This document shows, piece by piece, positions 2,666 to 51,707 of a stretch of 64,000 bases of DNA (the first letter of the stretch is position 1; every line of letters begins with the position of its first letter). Location: contig SKJC01000002.1 of the NCBI GenBank assembly GCA_007116155.1, positions 124,001 through 188,000 of the forward strand. The letters are read 5' to 3'. A program made the position numbers and the translations under genes. The DNA comes from Candidatus Babeliaceae bacterium. GTDB lineage: Bacteria; Babelota; Babeliae; Babelales; Babelaceae. The notes beneath the pieces are model-generated. The model worked only from the letters and a program-made list of their open reading frames with translations, was not told the DNA's origin and ran no database searches.

Positions 2666-3456
2666 TATACTCCCCGCGGTTTTTTAGAAACAAGAAGGGC
2701 ATACACCACAACTAGAGCACTACAAAAAACCAATAACAACGTGGAAAGCGCACCTACTTCAGGAGATATACCAACCCGCAACATCGATAAAATATACAAC
2801 GGCAACGTTTGAAACGTACTTCCTGCGCAAAAATAGGCACAAACGAAATCATCAAAAGAAATAATAAAGACAAGTGTTGCTGCCGCAAAGACCGTGGTTT
2901 TGAGTAATGGGAGTATCACAGATCCAAAAGCCATTAATGGTGAAGCTCCTAAATCCAACGCCGCTTCCATTAATCGCTTATCAAGCTCTTGATACCGATC
3001 ATATACGAGTGGAATAACATACCCCAATCCCAATACCGTATGCGCAATAATTAATGTAACCGGACCAAGCGGAATGCCAATCAAAATAGCAATATGGAGC
3101 AAGCCAACAGCGATAATAATTTCTGGTAACATTAAATTAAGGTAAAAATGAGTAATAAGACGACGTACATAGCTATTACGCATACCCCAAAAAACCGTTA
3201 ACACACCCATCGTACAACTTAAAAAAACAGAAGCTAAAGCTACAAATAATGAATTTAAAAGGCTCTCCCAAATTGCATAATCAAACAACAGCTCTCGATA
3301 CCAACGCAACGTCCCCCCAACCCAAGGAGAAGGAAAAGAAGCCGCATTAAATGAATAGGTAACAAGAATAATCAATGGAAGGTATAAAAAACCAAAAAAC
3401 AGAACAACCCAAATTGTATTCCAAATTCGAAGGCTACGTATATTCACAACAGCCAT
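2665..3456 (-). CDS. potC: spermidine/putrescine ABC transporter permease
   Basis: This inner-membrane permease has about six transmembrane helices and the binding-protein-dependent permease EAA loop (LMEAALDLGASPLMAFG), which contacts the ATPase. I place the start at the ATG at 3456 (MAVVNIRS) because AGGAG lies 7 bases upstream of it. An ATG at 3480 would begin inside potB and has no ribosome site. With this start the protein is 263 residues, normal for PotC, and follows the potB stop by about 10 bases. Confidence 0.88.
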   Translation of the reverse strand: MAVVNIRSLRIWNTIWVVLFFGFLYLPLIILVTYSFNAASFPSPWVGGTLRWYRELLFDYAIWESLLNSLFVALASVFLSCTMGVLTVFWGMRNSYVRRLITHFYLNLMLPEIIIAVGLLHIAILIGIPLGPVTLIIAHTVLGLGYVIPLVYDRYQELDKRLMEAALDLGASPLMAFGSVILPLLKTTVFAAATLVFIISFDDFVCAYFCAGSTFQTLPLYILSMLRVGISPEVGALSTLLLVFCSALVVVYALLVSKKPRGV

Positions 3457-3466
3457 AGCTGAACTC

Positions 3467-4348
3467 CTAGAGTGATTCATCCGAACTTGCCCTAAATAAA
3501 CTCACTGGCGTACGAACAGAAGTCCTCCACCAACGGGCATCGATAAGCCAATATAAAAAAATCACCGTACTTATTAAAACTAACGCCGCTAAAAAGGTAA
3601 AAGCGGCACCATACGCCACCATCTGCCCATGCATAGTAAAATGAGCAACAACTCCACCGGCAAACAACATACGATCGCCACCAATAAGCTCAGGAACAAT
3701 AAATTCACTAAACGCGGGCACGAGAACCAAAAAAAGACCCGACCGGACACCGGGAAGACTTAAAGGGAAAATAACACGCCAAAACGTTTGAAATGCGCTT
3801 GCTCCTAAATCAGAAGACGCCTCCAACATACGCACATCAAACTTTTCTAAATCGGTATAAATAGGGAAAATCATAAATGGAATATAACAATAGACCATAA
3901 CAATAAAAACTGCTCCAATTGAATTTAAGAACTCGAATGGTTCATTGTACCCAAAAAACTTTCCTAGAAACTGATTTACAAACCCTGTTTTACTTAATAA
4001 CAACATCCACGCATAAATATGCAGCAAAATATTAGTTAAAAAAGGTAAAAATAATAAAAACATAAAAAACTTTTTAAAACGACCAGCATAAAGCGCCATC
4101 CAATAAGCAACTGGATATCCAAAAAGCAACGAAAAAAGAGCTGTTCCTACACCAAGAAACAAGGACCGCAATAAAACAGCTCCATAATTAGCTGTAAAAA
4201 AGGAAGTTATATACTCAAACGAGAAAGACGAAAAACTAAGTGCTAATAAAAGGAATAACGGTACATATACAAAAAAAACTTGCCATAAAACTGCGGGTAT
4301 ACCGAAAAAAAAGGGTAACTCCTGAAAAAACAATTTCCGCACGTTCAT
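3467..4348 (-). CDS. potB: spermidine/putrescine ABC transporter permease
   Basis: This is the second inner-membrane permease, 293 residues with about six hydrophobic segments. It carries the EAA-type loop MLEASSDLGASAFQTFWRV near residues 175-193, and its first helix (FFVYVPLFLLLALSF) is typical of PotB. Its ATG overlaps the potA stop in an ATGA, indicating coupled translation with the ATPase gene. Confidence 0.88.
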   Translation of the reverse strand: MNVRKLFFQELPFFFGIPAVLWQVFFVYVPLFLLLALSFSSFSFEYITSFFTANYGAVLLRSLFLGVGTALFSLLFGYPVAYWMALYAGRFKKFFMFLLFLPFLTNILLHIYAWMLLLSKTGFVNQFLGKFFGYNEPFEFLNSIGAVFIVMVYCYIPFMIFPIYTDLEKFDVRMLEASSDLGASAFQTFWRVIFPLSLPGVRSGLFLVLVPAFSEFIVPELIGGDRMLFAGGVVAHFTMHGQMVAYGAAFTFLAALVLISTVIFLYWLIDARWWRTSVRTPVSLFRASSDESL

Positions 4349-23387: not shown

Positions 23388-23948
23388 TCAAAGAGTAGCC
23401 TTTTTAATCATGTTTTGCAACTCTGCAGCAGTAATAATTCCATCTTTTTCTTCTAAATCTTCCGGCATAGGTATAACCATCTGCAAGTATTCTTCCAGCA
23501 TAGGTCCTTCAAGTAACGCCGGTGCAGAATCATGATGCAGTTGATACCATTCAGCAATGCCCCCTTCATACGCATATACTGATTCAAAACCCATAGATTT
23601 TAATAAGCTTGCAGCTTCCCCGCTTGCTGAACAAAAATAATTCGAACAATAAGTAACCACAGGAACTTTTAGATCCCATGATTTAGCAATTCTTGCCAGA
23701 TCATCAACTGAAACACAAATTGACTCTACTTTTTCTCCACCTGCAATATGTGCATCATCAAACAGTTCTTTATCAAGAACATTTACAAGGCGCAAAGAAA
23801 CCTTTTGTTCCTTTGCCGAGGCTCCCACGCGGCAAACACCATGACTACATCCACAACCAGCATTTTTTTGAGAAGAAGAAAACCAAGAACACCCAGGAAT
23901 AATGCTTAAAATAATGATTAACAAACCGGTTTGTAAATACATATTCAT
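23388..23948 (-). CDS. rhodanese-domain lipoprotein
   Basis: This is a 186-residue exported protein. The N terminus has a hydrophobic signal ending in a lipobox-like IIPGC, so C20 is probably lipid-modified. It is followed by a Cys-rich short stretch (CGCSHGVC). The rhodanese domain spans about residues 50-140 with DAHIAGG and the active-site loop VVTYCSNYFC, whose first Cys would carry persulfide sulfur. It ends with an acidic tail. The role is presumably extracytoplasmic sulfur transfer or redox work; the lipid anchor would hold it in the periplasm. It starts 12 bases after the lepB stop. Confidence 0.8.
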   Translation of the reverse strand: MNMYLQTGLLIIILSIIPGCSWFSSSQKNAGCGCSHGVCRVGASAKEQKVSLRLVNVLDKELFDDAHIAGGEKVESICVSVDDLARIAKSWDLKVPVVTYCSNYFCSASGEAASLLKSMGFESVYAYEGGIAEWYQLHHDSAPALLEGPMLEEYLQMVIPMPEDLEEKDGIITAAELQNMIKKATL

Positions 23949-42226: not shown

Positions 42227-42892
42227 ATGAATAAAAAAACAGACTCCAATCTTTTCTTTTACTTTTTAAAACAGTTACAATCTTTTTTTATTAACGGTTT
42301 TTTGGCTCTCTTGCCGCTTGGCTTAACCGTATTTATCATAACATTTATTATTCGCACCGCACATCACTGGAGTACGCCCCTTCTGTCTATTTTGCCAGAA
42401 GCAATACGTACCATTCCCTTTATCGAACTTTTTTCTATCTCAATCTTTTTTATTAGTATTGGAATCGTTTTAAAATTTGTTATTTTACGGTGGTTTATTG
42501 AAAAAGCTGAAAAAATTGTTCGTCGTCTTCCGCTTATTAAACAGATTTATTTTGGAACAAAGCAACTGATTACTGCTCTTAATCCACAAGATAAGACTCA
42601 CTTTCAAAAAGTTGTACTTATCGAATTTCCTCGCAAAGGCATTTATAGTCTGGGATTTTTGACTTGCCAAAACACCTCACTGCTCCTTTCACATACAACT
42701 TCTTCAGAGGGGGCCCACAAACGGTTTTATAATATTTTCATTCCACACACCCCCAATCCAACGGGTGGAGCATTTGTCATTGCACCAGAAGAAGAATGTA
42801 TTATGACCGACCTATCTCGCCAAGATGCTATGGCTATTATTATTTCTGGAGGTATTATTCAACCAGACCAAATTGGATGCACACACACATAA
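42227..42892 (+). CDS. DUF502-family membrane protein
   Basis: This 221-residue protein has two N-terminal transmembrane helices (about 20-44 and 64-85) and a soluble domain. The motifs GFLALLPLGLTVFI, RLPLIKQIYFGTKQLITAL, VLIEFPRKGIYSLGFLT, FIPHTPNPTGGAFVIAPEEE and a closing IISGGIIQP match the DUF502 family, whose function is not established. It lies 9 bases after glmM and 14 bases before gap on the same strand. Confidence 0.8.
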   Translation: MNKKTDSNLFFYFLKQLQSFFINGFLALLPLGLTVFIITFIIRTAHHWSTPLLSILPEAIRTIPFIELFSISIFFISIGIVLKFVILRWFIEKAEKIVRRLPLIKQIYFGTKQLITALNPQDKTHFQKVVLIEFPRKGIYSLGFLTCQNTSLLLSHTTSSEGAHKRFYNIFIPHTPNPTGGAFVIAPEEECIMTDLSRQDAMAIIISGGIIQPDQIGCTHT

Positions 42893-42906
42893 AAAAGGAG
42901 TGTCTG

Positions 42907-43920
42907 GTGAACATAGCGATTAATGGACTCGGGAGAATCGGAAAATCAATATTACGCGCACTCTATAGCCGCAAAGATAAACATCCTCAACTAGTTCCCC
43001 TTGCGATCAATATTGGCCCTGCCTCTCTAGACCAGCTTGTTCAATCTATTCGATATGACAGCATTATGGGGCCATTACAGGAATCTATGTTAAAAATAAC
43101 GGGCAATATTCTTTCCTTCGGATCCTGGAATATCCAAATTTTTCAAGAAAGTGCGCCTGAAAAACTACCTTGGAAGGCGTTAGCCATTGACTGTGTAATT
43201 GAATGCAGTGGCATCTTTACTAAACGCGAAGAAGCTATGCGACACCAAAAAGCGGGTGCAAAAAAAGTAATAATTAGCGCGCCAGCAAAAAACCCCGACT
43301 GCACAATCATTCCCGGCGTAAACAACCACATGTACAACCCCAACCAGACTATTATTTCTTCAGGAAGCTGCACGACCAACGCTATTGCACCATTAATAAA
43401 AGTTATACAATCATTAACACCCATCACCTCAATCCAATTAGTTACAACCCACGCCTATACCAACTCACAACACCTGGTTGATACTATTCCATCACAAGAC
43501 GCAACAGACATACGTCAATTCCGCGCGGCAGGAATAAATATTATTCCTGGCTCGACAGGCGCGGGAAAACTTATGTCAGAAATTTTTCCGGAGCTTAAAG
43601 ACAAAACATCAGCAATAGCAATACGTGTTCCTGTTGCAAATGTTTCACTCGTTCAAGTCTTTTGGGTAGGAGAACAACCTATCGAAAAAAACACGATAAA
43701 TCAGACCTTCAGCCATGCTGAACAATCCTCGCTTCACGGTATTCTTGCAACTACAAACGACCCTGTTGTCTCATCTGATTTTATTGGCAATCCCTATTCA
43801 GTAACACTTGATGCACCGCTTACGGAAGCTGTTGGGAATCATGGACGTATTCTCGGGTGGTACGATAATGAATGGGGCTATAGCAACCGCATCATCGATT
43901 TCTTACAATCCATAGCATAA
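42907..43920 (+). CDS. gap: glyceraldehyde-3-phosphate dehydrogenase
   Basis: This glycolytic enzyme of the cytoplasm has 337 residues. It starts at a GTG with AAGGAG upstream and opens INGLGRIGKS, the Rossmann nucleotide loop. The catalytic cysteine is C155 in SSGSCTTNAIAP, the assisting histidine is in VTTHAYTNSQ, and the family closing YDNEWGYSNRI is present. The residue that sets NAD preference (usually Asp in AIND near position 35) is Ile here (AINIG), which could indicate altered cofactor use. In many bacteria gap precedes pgk; here a hairpin and a minus-strand gene follow. Confidence 0.92.
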   Translation: MNIAINGLGRIGKSILRALYSRKDKHPQLVPLAINIGPASLDQLVQSIRYDSIMGPLQESMLKITGNILSFGSWNIQIFQESAPEKLPWKALAIDCVIECSGIFTKREEAMRHQKAGAKKVIISAPAKNPDCTIIPGVNNHMYNPNQTIISSGSCTTNAIAPLIKVIQSLTPITSIQLVTTHAYTNSQHLVDTIPSQDATDIRQFRAAGINIIPGSTGAGKLMSEIFPELKDKTSAIAIRVPVANVSLVQVFWVGEQPIEKNTINQTFSHAEQSSLHGILATTNDPVVSSDFIGNPYSVTLDAPLTEAVGNHGRILGWYDNEWGYSNRIIDFLQSIA

Positions 43921-43952
43921 AAAGGAGAGGCTCATAAAAATGAGCCTCTCCT
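43917..43952 (-). terminator. hairpin between gap and the Lys/Cys-rich gene
   Basis: Perfect 12-base arms (43923-43934 and 43941-43952) enclose a 6-base loop. On the minus strand the arm is followed by TTTT-rich sequence, so it probably terminates the Lys/Cys-rich gene. The plus-strand side lacks a T run, so any effect on gap would be weaker. Confidence 0.65.
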
Positions 43953-43984: not shown

Positions 43985-44434
43985 TTATAAATCTTTTTTT
44001 ACTTCGTCTTTCTTGCTCTTTTTTGTCTTGCAAGAAAAACATGACTTACAAGCCTTTTTTTCCTTCTTTACCTTTTCTTTTTTTTCTTTTGCTGGTTTGT
44101 CTTTTTTTGAACAACATGATGGACGACAACCATTATCTTTCTTTATACAGCAAGTACCCTTTTCACGGGTTTTTCCATCACAACGGGTCCACCCACATGA
44201 CTTTTCACTCTCCTCTTTGGGAGCTTTCTCTTTTTTAACACAGCAAGATTTCTTTTCTTTCTTTGCCTTTTTCGCTTTTTTCTCTTTTTTCTTTTTTTTC
44301 TCTTTTACCGGCTTCTCTTTTTTAACGCAACAAGAACGGCATGATTTTTTAGACGCAGTCTCTTCTTCTTTTGCAAACACCGCGCTGCTGCCTATTACCC
44401 CAAGCAAAGCCAGGCTCAACAATAGCTTTTTCAT
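43985..44434 (-). CDS. exported Lys/Cys-rich protein
   Basis: This 149-residue protein has a clear signal peptide (MKKLLLSLALLGVIGSSAVFA, cleavage after AFA). The mature 128 residues are about one third lysine, with 15 cysteines in repeated modules: SCRSCCVKKEKP, SCCVKKEKAP, TCCIKKD, SCCSKKDKP and SCFSCKTKK. Low-complexity runs of KKEKK lie between them. The repeats suggest a metal-binding or disulfide-linked structural protein, or binding to a polyanion on the cell surface. No family is recognised. AGAGGAG lies 7 bases before the ATG. Confidence 0.75.
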   Translation of the reverse strand: MKKLLLSLALLGVIGSSAVFAKEEETASKKSCRSCCVKKEKPVKEKKKKKEKKAKKAKKEKKSCCVKKEKAPKEESEKSCGWTRCDGKTREKGTCCIKKDNGCRPSCCSKKDKPAKEKKEKVKKEKKACKSCFSCKTKKSKKDEVKKDL

Positions 44435-44583
44435 ACTAAGCTCCTCTTAAAAAAAGTCATACAACAATACCACCAGTTGGTATTTTATACTTCACTGCTT
44501 AGTATTACTGCTACATAATACTAATTGCAACAATTGTCCTTTTTTATCCAGGATAATGATATAGAGAATTGCTTGACCCTTAG

Positions 44584-44675: not shown

Positions 44676-45458
44676 ATGAAACTCTACCGAATATGGGCCG
44701 TTACCTACCGCCTTCTGATTCAATACCATAAAGACTTTAACAAGCTCGCGTCAGTCTTTTATTGGCCTGGTTTTGACATTATCGTATTCGGTTTTATGAT
44801 TACTGGAATCCAATGCACTACTTCTGATCCACTGGCAACCAAAGGTCTTCTTATTAATATCGCTCTATGGCCGCTTGTAAATCGCGGCAGCCTTACACTT
44901 TCATTAAGCCTTTTTGAGGAAATACGATCTCAAAACATTGCCGGGCTTTTTTCAACGCCCATCTCTTTTAGCGAATGGATTGCCGGCAGTATTCTCGAAG
45001 GCCTGATATCTTCTATTGCCGTTGTTCTTATGTGTGGGTTCATTGTTTCATCCATGTTTAATGTCTCTATTTTAGATGCAGGATGGCTACTTATACCCAT
45101 CATTACCTTTGGTTTTTTTACCGGTGTTGCGATCAGCTGCATAACGACTGCAGCGCTTTTCATTTGGGGCAGCAGCGTCCAAACTATTATATGGATGGCG
45201 GGATGGGCTTTTGCACTTATTAGCGGAATTTTTTACCCTATTGAAACACTCCCCCCAATCTTACAAAAAGTCGCCTTCTGCTTCCCACTCCAATACCTAT
45301 TTTCAAATATACGCACCTACATCAACACAGGAACATGGTCTATCGAAACACTCATGATCGGTTCTTTTCTAACCATATTCTATATGGTTATCTTAGGCAT
45401 TGGGCTAATTGCCTCCTATCGTTATAGCAAACAGCTCGGGCTCCATCGACTTATTTAG
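44676..45458 (+). CDS. ABC-2 type transporter permease
   Basis: This 260-residue inner-membrane protein has six hydrophobic segments and the ABC-2 pattern: an N-terminal cytoplasmic part (YHKDFNKLASVFYWPGFDIIVFGFM), then EEIRSQNIAGLFSTPISFSEW, and SGIFYPIETLPPILQKVAFCFPLQYL before the last helix. These exporters pair with an ATPase; the likely partner is at 47044, beyond an opposing gene. AAGGA lies upstream of the ATG. The substrate is unknown. Its end overlaps the convergent gene by 8 bases. Confidence 0.85.
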   Translation: MKLYRIWAVTYRLLIQYHKDFNKLASVFYWPGFDIIVFGFMITGIQCTTSDPLATKGLLINIALWPLVNRGSLTLSLSLFEEIRSQNIAGLFSTPISFSEWIAGSILEGLISSIAVVLMCGFIVSSMFNVSILDAGWLLIPIITFGFFTGVAISCITTAALFIWGSSVQTIIWMAGWAFALISGIFYPIETLPPILQKVAFCFPLQYLFSNIRTYINTGTWSIETLMIGSFLTIFYMVILGIGLIASYRYSKQLGLHRLI

Positions 45459-46890
45459 CAGCAGGCTCAATTAACGATTGAGCATCAGATAAGAACTTCA
45501 TCAAGCTTAAAATTCTTGGCAACTCTTTATCTAATAACGTAACGACTCCAAAAATTTGGATTCGTACTTTTTGTAATGCATCAACCATTTTTTGAATTTC
45601 TTCTTTTTTCAATACACTTACTGCTGGAGGAATTAATTTCACTGAACGACCAAAATCACCAGCAGGACCTTGTAAAATACTAAAAATATCTTGACTTAAA
45701 TCGTTCATTATTTGTAACAACCGATCAAGCACACCCCTATCTTCGCTAACCTCAGACAAAAATGGCATAGTAAAGGCAAAAATTTCCCCCATTGAATACA
45801 ATTTCGAAAAACCAGCATTCTGCTTTGCCAACATTGCTAACCGATCATCAATAAGTTGCAATGTCTGATTTGCAAGGGGCAGAACTTCGTCCAGACTATA
45901 ATCAACAAACAATCCAACATGGCCACCTAGTCTATGAAGCATTTTCCAGATTGCTCCCACACTTTCTCCGATATCTTGAATAATATTAACAGGAGAAACC
46001 ATACGCGCATGCGCCACATTCGCACGCAAAGTAGTAGTATCACCACCAGACAAAGCCATTTTCAAAAGATCTTTTGTGGTCACGTTCATAAAAGATAAAC
46101 CTATCGACAACAAACCGCTAGTTGCCTGCAACAACTGGCCTCCCCCAATTATTGTTGTAGACATTTCTCCTGCTAAACGGTCCCACTCAACCCCTATCTT
46201 TTTCAAAACAGACGACATCAAATCGAAAAAGATACCTAAATCAATCAAACGCTTCTGATATGACTCCTTCATATCAGAACGTCCAGCATTCCCCGCAAAT
46301 AAAATTAAAACCTCAAATAAATCAATCAACATAGGCCGCATAGAAATAATAAGAGTATTCACTTCATTTGTCAGAGGAGAAAGCTTATGTATTGCCTGTA
46401 AACGTTCACCAACAAAAACAACTTTCTCTCCCAAATCTTTAGGCGAAACCGTATCTGGAAGATCTTTTATTTCTTCTAAAACTCTATTAATTGCCTTTAC
46501 ATTCTCTTCCACAGAAGCAATATAACGTACTAGAATATCAATGGTTGATGGTTTCTCACCTTGCGCATCTAACATTGTTTTTTTTAACTGAGTAATTGCA
46601 TCAACGCTCCGCTGCAACCGAACAATAATATCTCCCTGAATTACTGTTTTTGTTCCGCCAAAAAGATCTTGTAGCACTCGAATCAAGTCCTCAGGCGCTC
46701 GTTGTAAAAAACGTCCTATCTCATCTGCTTTTTCTTTTACCACTTGTTCAATTTTACTTACGACCTGTTTACCGCGTTCAAAGTTTCTCCCATGACAATC
46801 ACCATCCCATGGCCAACAAAACTCCACAGCCCTGCTAAAATTCATAGATCCTATAAAAACAGTAAAAAACAAAATACGTAATAGTTTCAT
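45451..46890 (-). CDS. exported helical protein of unknown function
   Basis: No family is recognised. With the start at the ATG at 46890 (MKLLRILFF), downstream of a GAGG at 46903-46900, the protein has 479 residues and a signal peptide of about 20 residues ending near SRA. An aromatic Cys pair follows (CWPWDGDCHG). The rest is almost entirely alpha-helical with many short heptad-like segments (for example VVSKIEQVVKEKADEIGRFL and LQKVRIQIFGVVTLL), so it may be a long extracytoplasmic bundle. It lies between, and opposite to, the two genes of an ABC-2 exporter. A 35-base palindrome touches its ribosome site. Confidence 0.75.
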   Translation of the reverse strand: MKLLRILFFTVFIGSMNFSRAVEFCWPWDGDCHGRNFERGKQVVSKIEQVVKEKADEIGRFLQRAPEDLIRVLQDLFGGTKTVIQGDIIVRLQRSVDAITQLKKTMLDAQGEKPSTIDILVRYIASVEENVKAINRVLEEIKDLPDTVSPKDLGEKVVFVGERLQAIHKLSPLTNEVNTLIISMRPMLIDLFEVLILFAGNAGRSDMKESYQKRLIDLGIFFDLMSSVLKKIGVEWDRLAGEMSTTIIGGGQLLQATSGLLSIGLSFMNVTTKDLLKMALSGGDTTTLRANVAHARMVSPVNIIQDIGESVGAIWKMLHRLGGHVGLFVDYSLDEVLPLANQTLQLIDDRLAMLAKQNAGFSKLYSMGEIFAFTMPFLSEVSEDRGVLDRLLQIMNDLSQDIFSILQGPAGDFGRSVKLIPPAVSVLKKEEIQKMVDALQKVRIQIFGVVTLLDKELPRILSLMKFLSDAQSLIEPAAK

Positions 46891-46902
46891 TTTACCCATC
46901 CT

Positions 46903-46937
46903 CACTAATATAAAATATTTCATATTTTATATTAGTG
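46903..46937. repeat. 35-base perfect inverted repeat at a ribosome binding site
   Basis: Two 16-base arms (46903-46918 and 46922-46937) are exact reverse complements around a 3-base loop. The sequence is AT-rich apart from its ends and ends on the first base of the GAGG ribosome site of the gene starting at 46890. It could be a protein operator or an mRNA hairpin. No T run follows, so it is not an ordinary terminator. Confidence 0.85.
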
Positions 46938-47979: not shown

Positions 47980-50687
47980 TTCCACGCAAGGTGACGTTAA
48001 AAAATTTTTTAAGCTACGGCCCGAAAACGGTAACCGTTGATTTCTCTCCTTACCAATGCATCTGCTTGAGTGGAAAAAACGGTCATGGAAAATCGGCGCT
48101 ATTAGACGCAATTACCTGGGCACTCTGGGGACAAGCACGAAAAGTAAATGGTGTTGCACGATCTGAGGAGCATCTTGTTCATTTAGGACAAGATCACATG
48201 ATGATTTCATTCGATTTTGAAATTCATGAAGCAATCTATCGAGTTACGCGAGAATATTCAAAAATTCGCAACAAAAAGACACTCTCTGAATTACAATTTG
48301 GTGTTCTTAATGAAATAACGAACGAGTTTACCCCCTGCACTGGCAAAACAACGCGCGAAACGCAAGAACAGATAATCTCAACGATAAGCCTTTCGTTCGA
48401 AGGTTGTATAAATTCAATTTTTCTACGCCAAGGACAATCTCATGAATTTTCTAAAAAATCGCCCCAAGAACGAAAAGAAATCTTATCCTCAATCCTCGGG
48501 TTCAGCCATCTTGAGACCTATCGAGAAAACACCCTTGCTATCATTCGAGAATTGAATAAAAAGCAGTATTTGCTCACTAATCAAATCGAGCAATTACAAG
48601 AAAAAACGAAACAACTTCAATACATTCTTGCTGAAAAAAAAGAGATCGAGGAAGCTCTAACTCAGAGTAATAGTAAACAAAAAACAATTATACACAACAT
48701 AACTCTTACCGAGCAAATACAAGAACAATACCACCAGCAACAACAACAAAAAGCGCTATTGTTTCAAGAGAAAAAAATAATTTTAGACGCCCAATCTGCA
48801 GCAACATCGGAATTGCATAAACTCACTACAGAATGGAAAAACATACGCCAATCACTCGCAAAAATAAAAAACAAAAACAACAAAGACGAGTGCATAATCA
48901 TTGAAACCCAACTAGACGCCATTCAAGAAAAAAAAGATTTACTTCTTGCGCTCATCAACAAAAAGCAACAAATTACGGTGCAAATTGCTCTACAAGCACA
49001 AACTCTTGAACAGAACTACATACGACAAAAACAAGAGTTACAACTCCAAAAACAATCGATCCGCATAAACCTAACACATCAAAAAGAAGTTAGACAAACG
49101 ATACATTCGCAAATTACATGCCTCAATGCAGAACTTACAAATATAGTAGCTCTGAGCACCACGGAAACAGAAAATCTTCAAAAAATAGGACATCAAAAAG
49201 AGTCTCTTCAAAAACTTAAAAATACGAACCAATTACTGGAAAAAAAACAGCATACAGCCGCCTCTCTTAATCAAATTGCTGTAGAACAAGAAAAAAAATG
49301 CCAACAAACCCTTAGTCTATTGTTCAAGGCACAAGCGGTCTGCCCAACCTGCAAACAAGGACTTACAGAAAATACGCAGCATCAGGTCATACAACAAACA
49401 AAAAGACAAGAACAAAAATGTATACATCAATCAAAGCGCGCGCATCAACATCAAAGTGCACTTAAGGAACGCATTAAAACAGTTGTTTTACGTATACAAG
49501 AAGCACAAAACAACCTTCAAATGCTCGAGACGTTGCACATACAGCACCAAGCCGCACAACAAAAAAAAACATCCCTTCAAGAAGCAATCCTACAACTTCA
49601 AACCCAATATACCAAAGCAGCAGAAGAGGTTAAAAACCTTGAAAGTTCCTACTTACTCATTGAAGAACAAATTACTAGTGCAGAAACAAATTATACCGCT
49701 CAAAAAACTGTAGCCCTAGAATCTCCCCTACAAAAAACATGGGAATCTCTTGGTAATACAGAAAAAGAATATCTAGGATATTTACAAAAACAGAATGAAC
49801 AAGAATTACAAGAGCGATTGAAAAACATTAAAGAACAAGAAAACGCTGCGCAAAATCGAGCAATACTAAAACAAAACAAAAAAAACCTGGCAGCTCTCAT
49901 CCAGAAGCATCTTTCAAATGTACGCTTACTGCAAAAAAAACATGCGGCGATCGAATATTCAATACACAGCCGAGAATTCAACATATCCGATCAACAATTG
50001 GTTCTCCTGGATTTACGAAATACATTAACAAAAGAACATCAACTTTATTCAACACTCATAAGCAAAGAAAGTTTTTTACAAGCACAAATTAAACAGCTTG
50101 AACAGGATAAAGAACAATTAGCGCACCTTCAAAGAGAACAACAGGCTCTTATTATTCATCTTGATGAATATATGATACTTTCCAATGCTCTAAGTAAAAA
50201 TGGAATACAAGCCCTTCTAATTGAATACATTCTTCCTGAACTAGAATTAGAAACCAATGCTATTCTTCAAAAACTTTCAGAAAATAATACACAAATAATA
50301 TTTGAATCAGTAAAAGATCTTAAAAATGGTTCGTCTAAAGAAACACTCGATATTCATATTTCTGATGCTATGGGCGTGCGTCCTTACGAATTATTCTCAG
50401 GGGGTGAGGCCTTTCGCATTGATTTCGCGCTAAGAATAGCGCTATCAAAACTCCTAGCAAAGCGCTCTGGAAAACCATTGCAGACATTAATTATTGATGA
50501 AGGATTTGGCTCTCAAGATGAACAGGGCCTCGAAAAAATTCTTGAAGCCCTGCAAAAAATTCAATCAGATTTTGCGAAAATAATTATTGTTTCCCACCTG
50601 CAAGAAATGAAAACTCAATTTGCTGCAAATTTTATTGTTGAAAAACATCCAACAGGATCAAACGTTACTATTATTGAGCAATGGTAG
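47976..50687 (+). CDS. sbcC: SbcC/Rad50-type DNA repair ATPase
   Basis: This is the ATPase of the MRN-like complex that resects DNA ends and cuts hairpins. In 903 residues it has the N-terminal Walker A SGKNGHGKSA (32-41), the family segment FLRQGQSHEFSKKSPQERKEILSSILG, a coiled coil of about 600 residues, the zinc-hook CPTC at about 456-459 for dimerisation, and the C-terminal SGGEAFRIDFALRIALSKLL and LIIDEGFGSQDEQG (Walker B). Its nuclease partner SbcD is not adjacent. It starts with a GTG inside the end of the ABC ATPase gene. Its last 17 bases overlap trxB, which is convergent. Confidence 0.92.
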   Translation: MIPRKVTLKNFLSYGPKTVTVDFSPYQCICLSGKNGHGKSALLDAITWALWGQARKVNGVARSEEHLVHLGQDHMMISFDFEIHEAIYRVTREYSKIRNKKTLSELQFGVLNEITNEFTPCTGKTTRETQEQIISTISLSFEGCINSIFLRQGQSHEFSKKSPQERKEILSSILGFSHLETYRENTLAIIRELNKKQYLLTNQIEQLQEKTKQLQYILAEKKEIEEALTQSNSKQKTIIHNITLTEQIQEQYHQQQQQKALLFQEKKIILDAQSAATSELHKLTTEWKNIRQSLAKIKNKNNKDECIIIETQLDAIQEKKDLLLALINKKQQITVQIALQAQTLEQNYIRQKQELQLQKQSIRINLTHQKEVRQTIHSQITCLNAELTNIVALSTTETENLQKIGHQKESLQKLKNTNQLLEKKQHTAASLNQIAVEQEKKCQQTLSLLFKAQAVCPTCKQGLTENTQHQVIQQTKRQEQKCIHQSKRAHQHQSALKERIKTVVLRIQEAQNNLQMLETLHIQHQAAQQKKTSLQEAILQLQTQYTKAAEEVKNLESSYLLIEEQITSAETNYTAQKTVALESPLQKTWESLGNTEKEYLGYLQKQNEQELQERLKNIKEQENAAQNRAILKQNKKNLAALIQKHLSNVRLLQKKHAAIEYSIHSREFNISDQQLVLLDLRNTLTKEHQLYSTLISKESFLQAQIKQLEQDKEQLAHLQREQQALIIHLDEYMILSNALSKNGIQALLIEYILPELELETNAILQKLSENNTQIIFESVKDLKNGSSKETLDIHISDAMGVRPYELFSGGEAFRIDFALRIALSKLLAKRSGKPLQTLIIDEGFGSQDEQGLEKILEALQKIQSDFAKIIIVSHLQEMKTQFAANFIVEKHPTGSNVTIIEQW

Positions 50688-51684
50688 GAAGCTCATATCT
50701 CATAAAATGTATTGCCCCTTTTCCTGCGGCACAAATCCCACTTCCTGAAGCCACAGGCGCTTGACGATATGCCCACTGCACAACATCACCAGCTGCAAAA
50801 ACCCCGGGAATACTCGTTTGCCTTGAAATCGGATCGACAACAATATGATCTGAATCAGAAAGCTCAAGCTGATTCTTGAATAAATCGGTATTAGGACCAT
50901 GACCAATCAAAACAAAAACACCTTCTACGTTTAATAATTCTTGATCTTGAGTCTCTTTATTATATAATGCCAAACCGCTTACTGATTCACCATTACCTAC
51001 AATTTCTATCGGTTCACGGCCATATAACACCTCAATCTTACCTTCGTATTCTCGCAACTTTTCACGAACATAACGCTGAGCTCTTATTTCACGCCCACGA
51101 ACCAATACATATACATGGCTTGCATACTCAGCTAAATGTACCGCAGAAGTAATGGCAGAGTCTCCACTCCCAATAACCGCAACAGGTTTTCCTTCAAACG
51201 CAAATGCATCACAGGTCGCACAGCCCGAAACTCCACTTCCCCAATATTTTTCTTCACCGGGAATCCCCAATTTTCTAGGGCAAGAACCAGTCGCAATAAT
51301 GATAGACGCCGCTTTCAATGGAGCTGAATCTGCAAGGGTAACCGTAAATGGATACCTAGTTAAATCAACAGAGACGGCCGTATCATATAAAAAAGACACC
51401 CCGCGCGATTCCACTTGCTTCAAAATAGAGGTCATAATATCAAAACCACTTGCTGGCTGGATACCTGGCCAATTCTCAACCCATTTTGCACGAGTAATAA
51501 GACCACCAGCCTCATCTCCAGTAACCAAAATGACCGGTATGCGTGCATCAGCAATATGCATAGCAGCAGAAGCTCCTGCTGGACCAGAACCTAGCACCAC
51601 CACAGGTAATTGCTCAGCAAATGCTTGCCAAAATCCCAATATCCCCAAAAAGGTAATTGAAAAAATATAATAACGCCAAAGCAT
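50671..51684 (-). CDS. trxB: thioredoxin reductase with export signal
   Basis: This FAD enzyme normally reduces thioredoxin with NADPH in the cytoplasm. Here 337 residues include a 23-residue hydrophobic N-terminal segment (about 6-20) ending FAEQ, a likely signal peptide or anchor, before the FAD loop VVLGSGPAGASAA. The redox pair is C155 and C158 (SGCATCDAF), the NADPH loop is VIGSGDSAI and the closing FAD motif is GVFAAGDVVQW. The start is the ATG at 51684, 6 bases after GGGAGG; a longer ATG at 51690 is too close to it. Periplasmic TrxB is unusual. It overlaps the end of sbcC. Confidence 0.88.
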   Translation of the reverse strand: MLWRYYIFSITFLGILGFWQAFAEQLPVVVLGSGPAGASAAMHIADARIPVILVTGDEAGGLITRAKWVENWPGIQPASGFDIMTSILKQVESRGVSFLYDTAVSVDLTRYPFTVTLADSAPLKAASIIIATGSCPRKLGIPGEEKYWGSGVSGCATCDAFAFEGKPVAVIGSGDSAITSAVHLAEYASHVYVLVRGREIRAQRYVREKLREYEGKIEVLYGREPIEIVGNGESVSGLALYNKETQDQELLNVEGVFVLIGHGPNTDLFKNQLELSDSDHIVVDPISRQTSIPGVFAAGDVVQWAYRQAPVASGSGICAAGKGAIHFMRYELPTIAQ

Positions 51685-51707
51685 ACGCATCCTCCCTTAG
51701 TTACCTA

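Follow-up and report, generated by a model that had tools for sequence, protein, structure and literature searches.

A small family of exported cysteine- and lysine-rich proteins in Candidatus Dependentiae, with a shared putative promoter motif and a possible redox-switched role at the envelope

The window, that is, the whole stretch of DNA analysed here, comprises 64,000 nucleotides (positions 124,001 to 188,000 of contig SKJC01000002.1) from the genome of a Candidatus Dependentiae (TM6) bacterium. A scan based on the ABC permease of the locus retrieved three loci, all of them from Candidatus Dependentiae / TM6: UBA12474, GW2011_GWE2_42_60 and GW2011_GWF2_43_87 (hereafter GWE2_42_60 and GWF2_43_87). 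UBA12474 is a genus mate of the window genome, with permeases 61-62% identical, and the other two belong to the same family and a different genus. The window's own assembly, 95.7% complete, spans 18 contigs with a total of 754,937 bases. One report describes the phylum as strictly intracellular, with protist hosts (PMC12172432).

The gene of interest lies between a glyceraldehyde-3-phosphate dehydrogenase (GAPDH) gene and an ABC-2 type permease gene (Table 1). Its coordinates had been given correctly in the initial annotation, which named no strand; the gene is on the minus strand. The product begins with a signal peptide, MKKLLLSLALLGVIGSSAVFA, called by eye at about residues 1-21 and ending in AVFA, which leaves a mature part of 128 residues. 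This part contains 15 Cys, 48 Lys, 16 Glu and two aromatic residues, with an isoelectric point of about 9.7. It displays four CCxKK modules where 0.23 are expected, and at least four occurred in 3 of 20,000 shuffles, while CC doublets alone were not significant (1,245 of 20,000 shuffles as high). The description of an exported, Lys- and Cys-rich protein with repeated CC-KK modules thus held up. The same can be said of its composition, which the initial annotation had called unlike that of any neighbour: at 10.1% Cys and 33.6% Lys the protein ranks first for both residues among the 76 window ORFs of at least 100 aa counted from their first ATG, where the runners-up reach 6.9% Cys and 12.0% Lys.

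Table 1. Positions of the features at the locus, in window coordinates
Feature	Position	Strand	Basis and remarks
Glyceraldehyde-3-phosphate dehydrogenase (GAPDH), conserved neighbour	42796..43920	+	Pfam Gp_dh_N, Gp_dh_C; counted from the first in-frame ATG, true start probably later
Hairpin terminator, between the Cys/Lys gene and the convergent GAPDH gene	43923..43952	-	13 pairs, 7 of them G-C
Exported Cys/Lys-rich protein, 149 aa	43985..44434	-	ORF translation, composition, shuffles, codon usage
Ribosome-binding site region	44435..44449	-	Sequence; purine-rich TAAGAGGAGCTTAGT ahead of the ATG
Inverted repeat, 26 bp, TTAGTATTA-N8-TAATACTAA	44499..44524	.	Overlaps the putative promoter; common to UBA12474, not to GWE2_42_60 or GWF2_43_87
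Putative promoter motif, TTGCRATT-N16-RATACT	44501..44530	-	Exact sites before all four family genes; ends 66 nt before the start codon
ABC-2 type permease, divergent conserved neighbour	44676..45458	+	Pfam ABC2_membrane; relatives

Codon usage and the ribosome-binding site mark this ORF as a gene. None of 1000 synonymous recodings with the gene's own base composition had as high a codon score, and the coding frame scored 6.7, compared with a maximum of 2.5, in an antisense frame, among the other five. The opposite strand carries an ORF of 145 aa (44013-44450, TTG start) that appears to mirror the Lys codons, being rich in Phe and Ser. With its own promoter motif and its own terminator, the gene forms a single-gene unit. 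Together with the relatives described below, these observations identify it as a real gene of a small exported Cys/Lys-rich family within one family of Dependentiae, export being read from the signal peptide.

Homology searches gave the impression of an orphan. The protein search across 101 genomes of the order returned a credible match to the window protein in its own genome alone, and the matches in eight other genomes (E up to 1) were attributable to signal peptides, Lys-rich stretches or chance. Scans of genome, viral and phage contig collections with the same protein gave no match, though the genome collection contains both GWE2_42_60 and GWF2_43_87. The orphan status was overturned by relatives that surfaced from a codon pattern and a composition scan. 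The codon pattern, CC-x-KK-(K/E/D/N)...C, matched 82 of the 101 order genomes, mostly by chance. All its sites in the 16 genomes of the family were scanned for a Cys/Lys-rich frame, as were 24 places in other families. It led to a match in GWF2_43_87 about 2.7 kb from the permease of that genome, where two tandem genes encode proteins of 87 aa (23 Cys) and 98 aa (21 Cys), with signal peptides called by eye. The gene of GWE2_42_60 came from the composition scan of 142 loci; it adjoins GAPDH and encodes 114 aa from its likely start, with 21 Cys. The codon pattern is blind to a copy of this type, so other genomes of the family may still carry the gene. The initial annotation had proposed that relatives be searched for the repeat, and had taken absence from all close relatives, together with no selection on the Cys positions, as grounds for rejection. 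Family members are present in these two genomes of another genus, and the promoter motif recurs in UBA12474.

Six of 1068 distinct ORFs of at least 60 aa in the stretches examined passed a limit of 10% for both Cys and Lys beyond residue 20, namely the four family genes, a frame at locus L143 in which no signal peptide is visible, and a small protein at L087 that is exported. An additional passer in the 142-locus scan, a frame at L011, was taken as chance. Frames matching the codon pattern in genomes G041 and G048 are not exported and are unrelated to the family; by eye they resemble Bfd-type ferredoxin domains.

The degree of similarity differs sharply between the parts of these proteins. The signal peptides can be aligned across the family (MKxxLLxL...A): none of 500 shuffles reached the score of the GWE2_42_60 copy against the window protein, and the alignment is weaker for the GWF2_43_87 copies (46 of 500 for copy a, 3 of 500 for copy b). 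When GWE2_42_60 and GWF2_43_87 a and b were aligned locally to the window protein over their full length, their scores were reached by 0, 1 and 2 of 500 shuffles, a significance that comes partly from the division into signal and mature parts, which shuffling destroys. The mature parts compared with that of the window protein are not significantly similar (22, 19 and 109 of 500 shuffles, in the same order) and cannot be matched to it position by position, so the window gene is counted as kin because of its signal peptide, its place and its promoter motif. The mature parts of the relatives are similar among themselves (0, 0 and 13 of 500 shuffles). The mature sequence differs strongly across the family, apparently through repeat gain. 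Within the GWE2_42_60 gene, 58 bp are repeated exactly, which can be one route to fast change in such proteins.

The four proteins are 87-149 aa long, without a recognised domain, and their mature parts have few aromatics (0-2), almost no His (0-1) and CC, CxxC and CK/KC motifs. The mature parts hold 15, 22, 21 and 21 Cys, an odd number in all but one, and the proteins have 4, 11, 9 and 7 CC doublets; relative to composition, the excess of doublets in the three relatives is weak or nil (110, 244 and 613 of 5000 shuffles as high). Counted over whole proteins, Lys is the more variable residue (14-50) and Cys the steadier one (15-23). The Lys:Cys ratio runs from about 0.7 to 3.3, so the two features may serve different purposes. 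Pfam returned no family for the window protein (E 1) or for the three relatives (E 10), and NCBIfam only matches below cut-off: the window protein reached at best 15.9 of 80 bits, and that of GWE2_42_60 reached 17.4 of 25. Neither of the two sequences compared with the PDB, the window protein and a relative, had a match there. AlphaFold2 with the four family sequences as input produced no fold, at scores that are uninformative either way (mean pLDDT 38, pTM 0.13). We found no description of this Cys/Lys-rich Dependentiae family in the open-licence PMC literature.

The gene lies near the GAPDH / ABC-permease block in the window, in GWE2_42_60 (one copy) and in GWF2_43_87 (two copies). GAPDH was sought in seven relatives and located in five, with a Cys/Lys gene nearby in these same two; in the remaining three (G002, G009 and G013) none was present within the 10 kb examined. 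Across the 16 genomes of the family, the gene is present in at least three, and the promoter motif in one more, UBA12474. Beyond the family, a 62-aa exported protein in genome G046 of family f19 (L188 359-544, minus strand) carries NCGCCGKK after its signal. Over 25 residues it is similar to one copy of GWF2_43_87 (E 1e-6 in this one pairwise comparison), and it may be a distant relative. Another exported protein, of 205 aa, occurs within the same family as the window genome (G003, L154 759-1373, plus strand) and displays many CC pairs, little Lys and no Pfam match. Next to the permease, the window also encodes a protein of 490 aa whose start resembles a signal peptide and which reaches the cut-off of no Pfam family (45451-46923, minus strand). 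A protein of 487 aa that resembles it by eye adjoins the ABC permease in UBA12474 (L010 908-2371, minus strand).

The promoter motif ties the four genes together. It precedes every one of them, and its distance to the start codon is 66, 79, 76 and 82 nt. Five distinct exact sites were found in 616,689 bases (the window plus 162 loci, some overlapping, which are neither a random sample nor whole genomes): four before the Cys/Lys genes and one at the edge of a UBA12474 contig. Spacings of 13-15 or 17-19 gave no site in the same bases, and the exact motif was absent from forty further stretches and from 3 Mb of order-1 Markov sequence. At two mismatches, two further sites appeared in the window, both within other genes. 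From this sequence pattern, we infer that TTGCRATT-N16-RATACT is a promoter. The UBA12474 site lies 29 bases from the end of its contig, in the right orientation, at a point where the gene would start. Neither the Cys/Lys gene (by protein search and codon pattern, either of which can miss it) nor GAPDH was detected in that assembly, and the simplest reading would be an assembly gap. The inverted repeat was rejected as a repressor operator. Among 19 genomes it is exact in the window genome and UBA12474 only, and it is absent from GWE2_42_60 and GWF2_43_87 at up to two mismatches. Genomes G003 and G011 had one imperfect site each, and a reversed control pattern matched G000, G003 and G020. The element common to the window gene and the other genus is the promoter motif, not the inverted repeat.

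The state of the thiols in such a protein would depend on the redox machinery of the cell. DsbB matched none of the 86 order genomes searched and 6 of 14 control genomes. VKOR matched 15 of the 86 and 3 of the 14; it was not found in the window's own genome, UBA12474, GWE2_42_60 or GWF2_43_87. These searches covered known families of DsbB and VKOR in draft assemblies, the window's own among them at the completeness given above; disulfides could still be made, for instance by DsbA or another oxidase. The own genome has five thioredoxin-like places, including one plain thioredoxin. A second place encodes a DsbD-like protein that combines DsbD_TM with thioredoxin domains, and a third a thioredoxin resembling a lipoprotein. 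The other two encode a thioredoxin-like protein for which a signal peptide was called by eye and a fusion of thioredoxin reductase and thioredoxin preceded by a hydrophobic segment (L110 1492-2982, minus strand). A second thioredoxin reductase lies in the window (50671-51690, minus strand), with a signal-like leader whose hydrophobicity is 1.55 against a threshold of 1.6. Reductase homologues are present in 47 of 49 order genomes. A motif filter kept 12 distinct proteins from 31 loci, eight of them of fusion length; a hydrophobic N-terminal segment exceeds the threshold in 10 of the 12, and its N-terminal side is the more positive in seven of those 10. Expansion of thioredoxin reductases is mentioned in an account of Babela massiliensis (PMC4378268).

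This gene content suggests a compartment with reduced thiols. The lack of a DsbB or VKOR match, combined with DsbD, exported thioredoxins and an anchored fusion, implies that the thiols of the Cys/Lys protein are probably reduced inside the host. A more elaborate scheme can be put together from the anchored reductase-thioredoxin fusion, the signal-leader reductase and the exported thioredoxins: an extracytoplasmic, NADPH-driven thioredoxin system of Dependentiae, fed by host NADPH while the bacterium is in its host, might have as its client a fast-evolving Cys/Lys coat, soft and reduced in the host and cross-linked outside. We consider this scheme very improbable.

Several other Cys-rich proteins came to light in the course of these searches. 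At L087, two neighbouring genes (3187-3435 and 3451-3702, minus strand) encode exported Cys-rich proteins of 72 and 80 aa; the pair belongs to another Dependentiae family and is separated by a single ORF, some 400 bp in all, from a reductase-thioredoxin fusion. A protein of 57 aa with 16 Cys, no signal peptide by eye and no Pfam match is encoded just upstream of VKOR at L075 (1229-1402, plus strand). The window itself encodes a rhodanese-domain protein with a lipoprotein-like, Cys-rich start (CGCSHGVC; 23388-23948, minus strand).

The reading that we tentatively place first, though its odds fall short of even, is that of a polycationic thiol protein of the envelope that is reduced within the host and cross-linked by oxidation outside it. 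The protein would be disordered, strongly cationic and thiol-rich, and would sit in the periplasm or at the cell surface, where the Lys-rich spacers might bind it to anionic lipid, the wall or nucleic acid. During life in the host, with DsbD and exported thioredoxins present and no DsbB or VKOR match, the Cys clusters would be kept reduced. Upon release into an oxidising medium, the molecules would become linked to one another through their vicinal thiols, which would make the free particle's envelope stiffer, and re-entry into a host would reduce these thiols again. The odd Cys counts in three of the four proteins and the many CC doublets fit poorly with purely intramolecular pairing. The weak or absent excess of doublets over composition and the variable Lys:Cys ratio speak against this reading. 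The free particle of Chromulinavorax is described as having dark periplasmic material (PMC6561590). According to the same description, its mur pathway is complete, so a Cys network would not be needed there as a substitute for the wall. The initial annotation had offered metal binding, cross-linking by disulfides or binding of polyanions, in an analogy to the Cys-rich envelope proteins of other intracellular bacteria. The intracellular setting of Dependentiae fits that analogy. Disulfides made by an enzyme within the host are mildly disfavoured, given the missing DsbB and VKOR matches and the presence of DsbD and exported thioredoxins.

A soft-metal sink is nearly as likely as a cross-linker, although doubtful in itself. 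The protein would then resemble an exported metallothionein, with thiolate clusters that capture Cu(I) or Zn(II) encountered in the phagosome of the protist and with Lys residues that balance the charge of the clusters. Mature parts with 15-22 Cys, hardly any aromatics or His, and CC, CxxC and CK/KC motifs would suit this function, and free thiols are favoured by the reducing machinery of the own genome and its lack of a DsbB or VKOR match. However, none of the four members has a Pfam match, the four neighbours scanned include no transporter or regulator for metals, and Lys far exceeds Cys in the window copy. MerR-type metal promoters have a long-spacer dyad, which the family promoter lacks. 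On the side of the sink, exported Cys-rich proteins that store Cu(I) are reported, namely Csp1 and Csp2 (PMC5171941), and copper has been proposed to take part in bacterial killing by Dictyostelium, where the role of zinc transporters awaits proof according to the source (PMC5758549).

If the Cys served only to stabilise it, the protein could be a secreted polycation acting on host polyanions (nucleic acid, phosphoinositides or glycans) or a host-directed peptide. Lys makes up 48 of the 128 mature residues, and the Chromulinavorax report gives a putative signal peptide for 44% of genes, in a set enriched in ORFans and enzymes that possibly act on the host (PMC6561590). We regard this as rather unlikely, however, as it is Lys that varies more within the family and Cys that is the steadier. 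Least probable of all, to the point of being very unlikely, is a functionless by-product in which a Lys-rich stretch grew by slippage behind a signal peptide. Short imperfect tandem repeats within the Lys codons, the internal repeat of the GWE2_42_60 relative and mature parts without significant similarity to the window's beyond composition speak for it. The reading is already disfavoured by the promoter motif, conserved with exact spacing before all four genes and at the UBA12474 contig edge; the conserved neighbourhood, the adapted codon use and the excess of CCxKK modules over composition also count against it.

Collectively, these findings turn an apparent orphan of a parasitic phylum into a member of a family that had been hidden from homology search by low-complexity, repeat-driven divergence. 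The promoter motif offers a handle at the DNA level for seeking more of its members. If the redox reading is true, it would imply a thiol-switched envelope in obligate intracellular bacteria outside the Chlamydiae.

Among known systems, metallothioneins are similar in their high Cys content, their CC, CxxC and CK motifs and their few aromatics, but the window protein is exported by a signal peptide and is Lys-dominated with long spacers, and no member of the family matches any Pfam metallothionein. Csp1 and Csp2 are likewise exported and rich in Cys (PMC5171941); they carry a Tat signal, whereas no twin-arginine motif is visible in the window protein. Four-helix bundles are attributed to the Csp family, as reported for Csp3, while no helix was predicted for the Cys/Lys family (a low-confidence prediction, as noted above). 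Within Dependentiae, the proteins of Babela massiliensis with Cys-rich N-terminal domains are also secreted; these are described as large proteins with a beta-barrel domain (PMC4378268), unlike the short proteins of the Cys/Lys family. A parallel in working would be chlamydial OmcA/OmcB, whose disulfides are reported to form in the infectious particle and to be reduced in the dividing form (PMC3561449). As that report presents them, these too are exported and rich in Cys, and they belong to an obligate intracellular bacterium that passes through a free infectious stage. They differ from the family described here in that its members have no Pfam match, that the window copy has no clear lipobox by eye and a very high Lys content, and that its genome has no DsbB or VKOR match. 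Homology between the two is not supported; the likeness would lie in working only, in the proposed reversible disulfide network.
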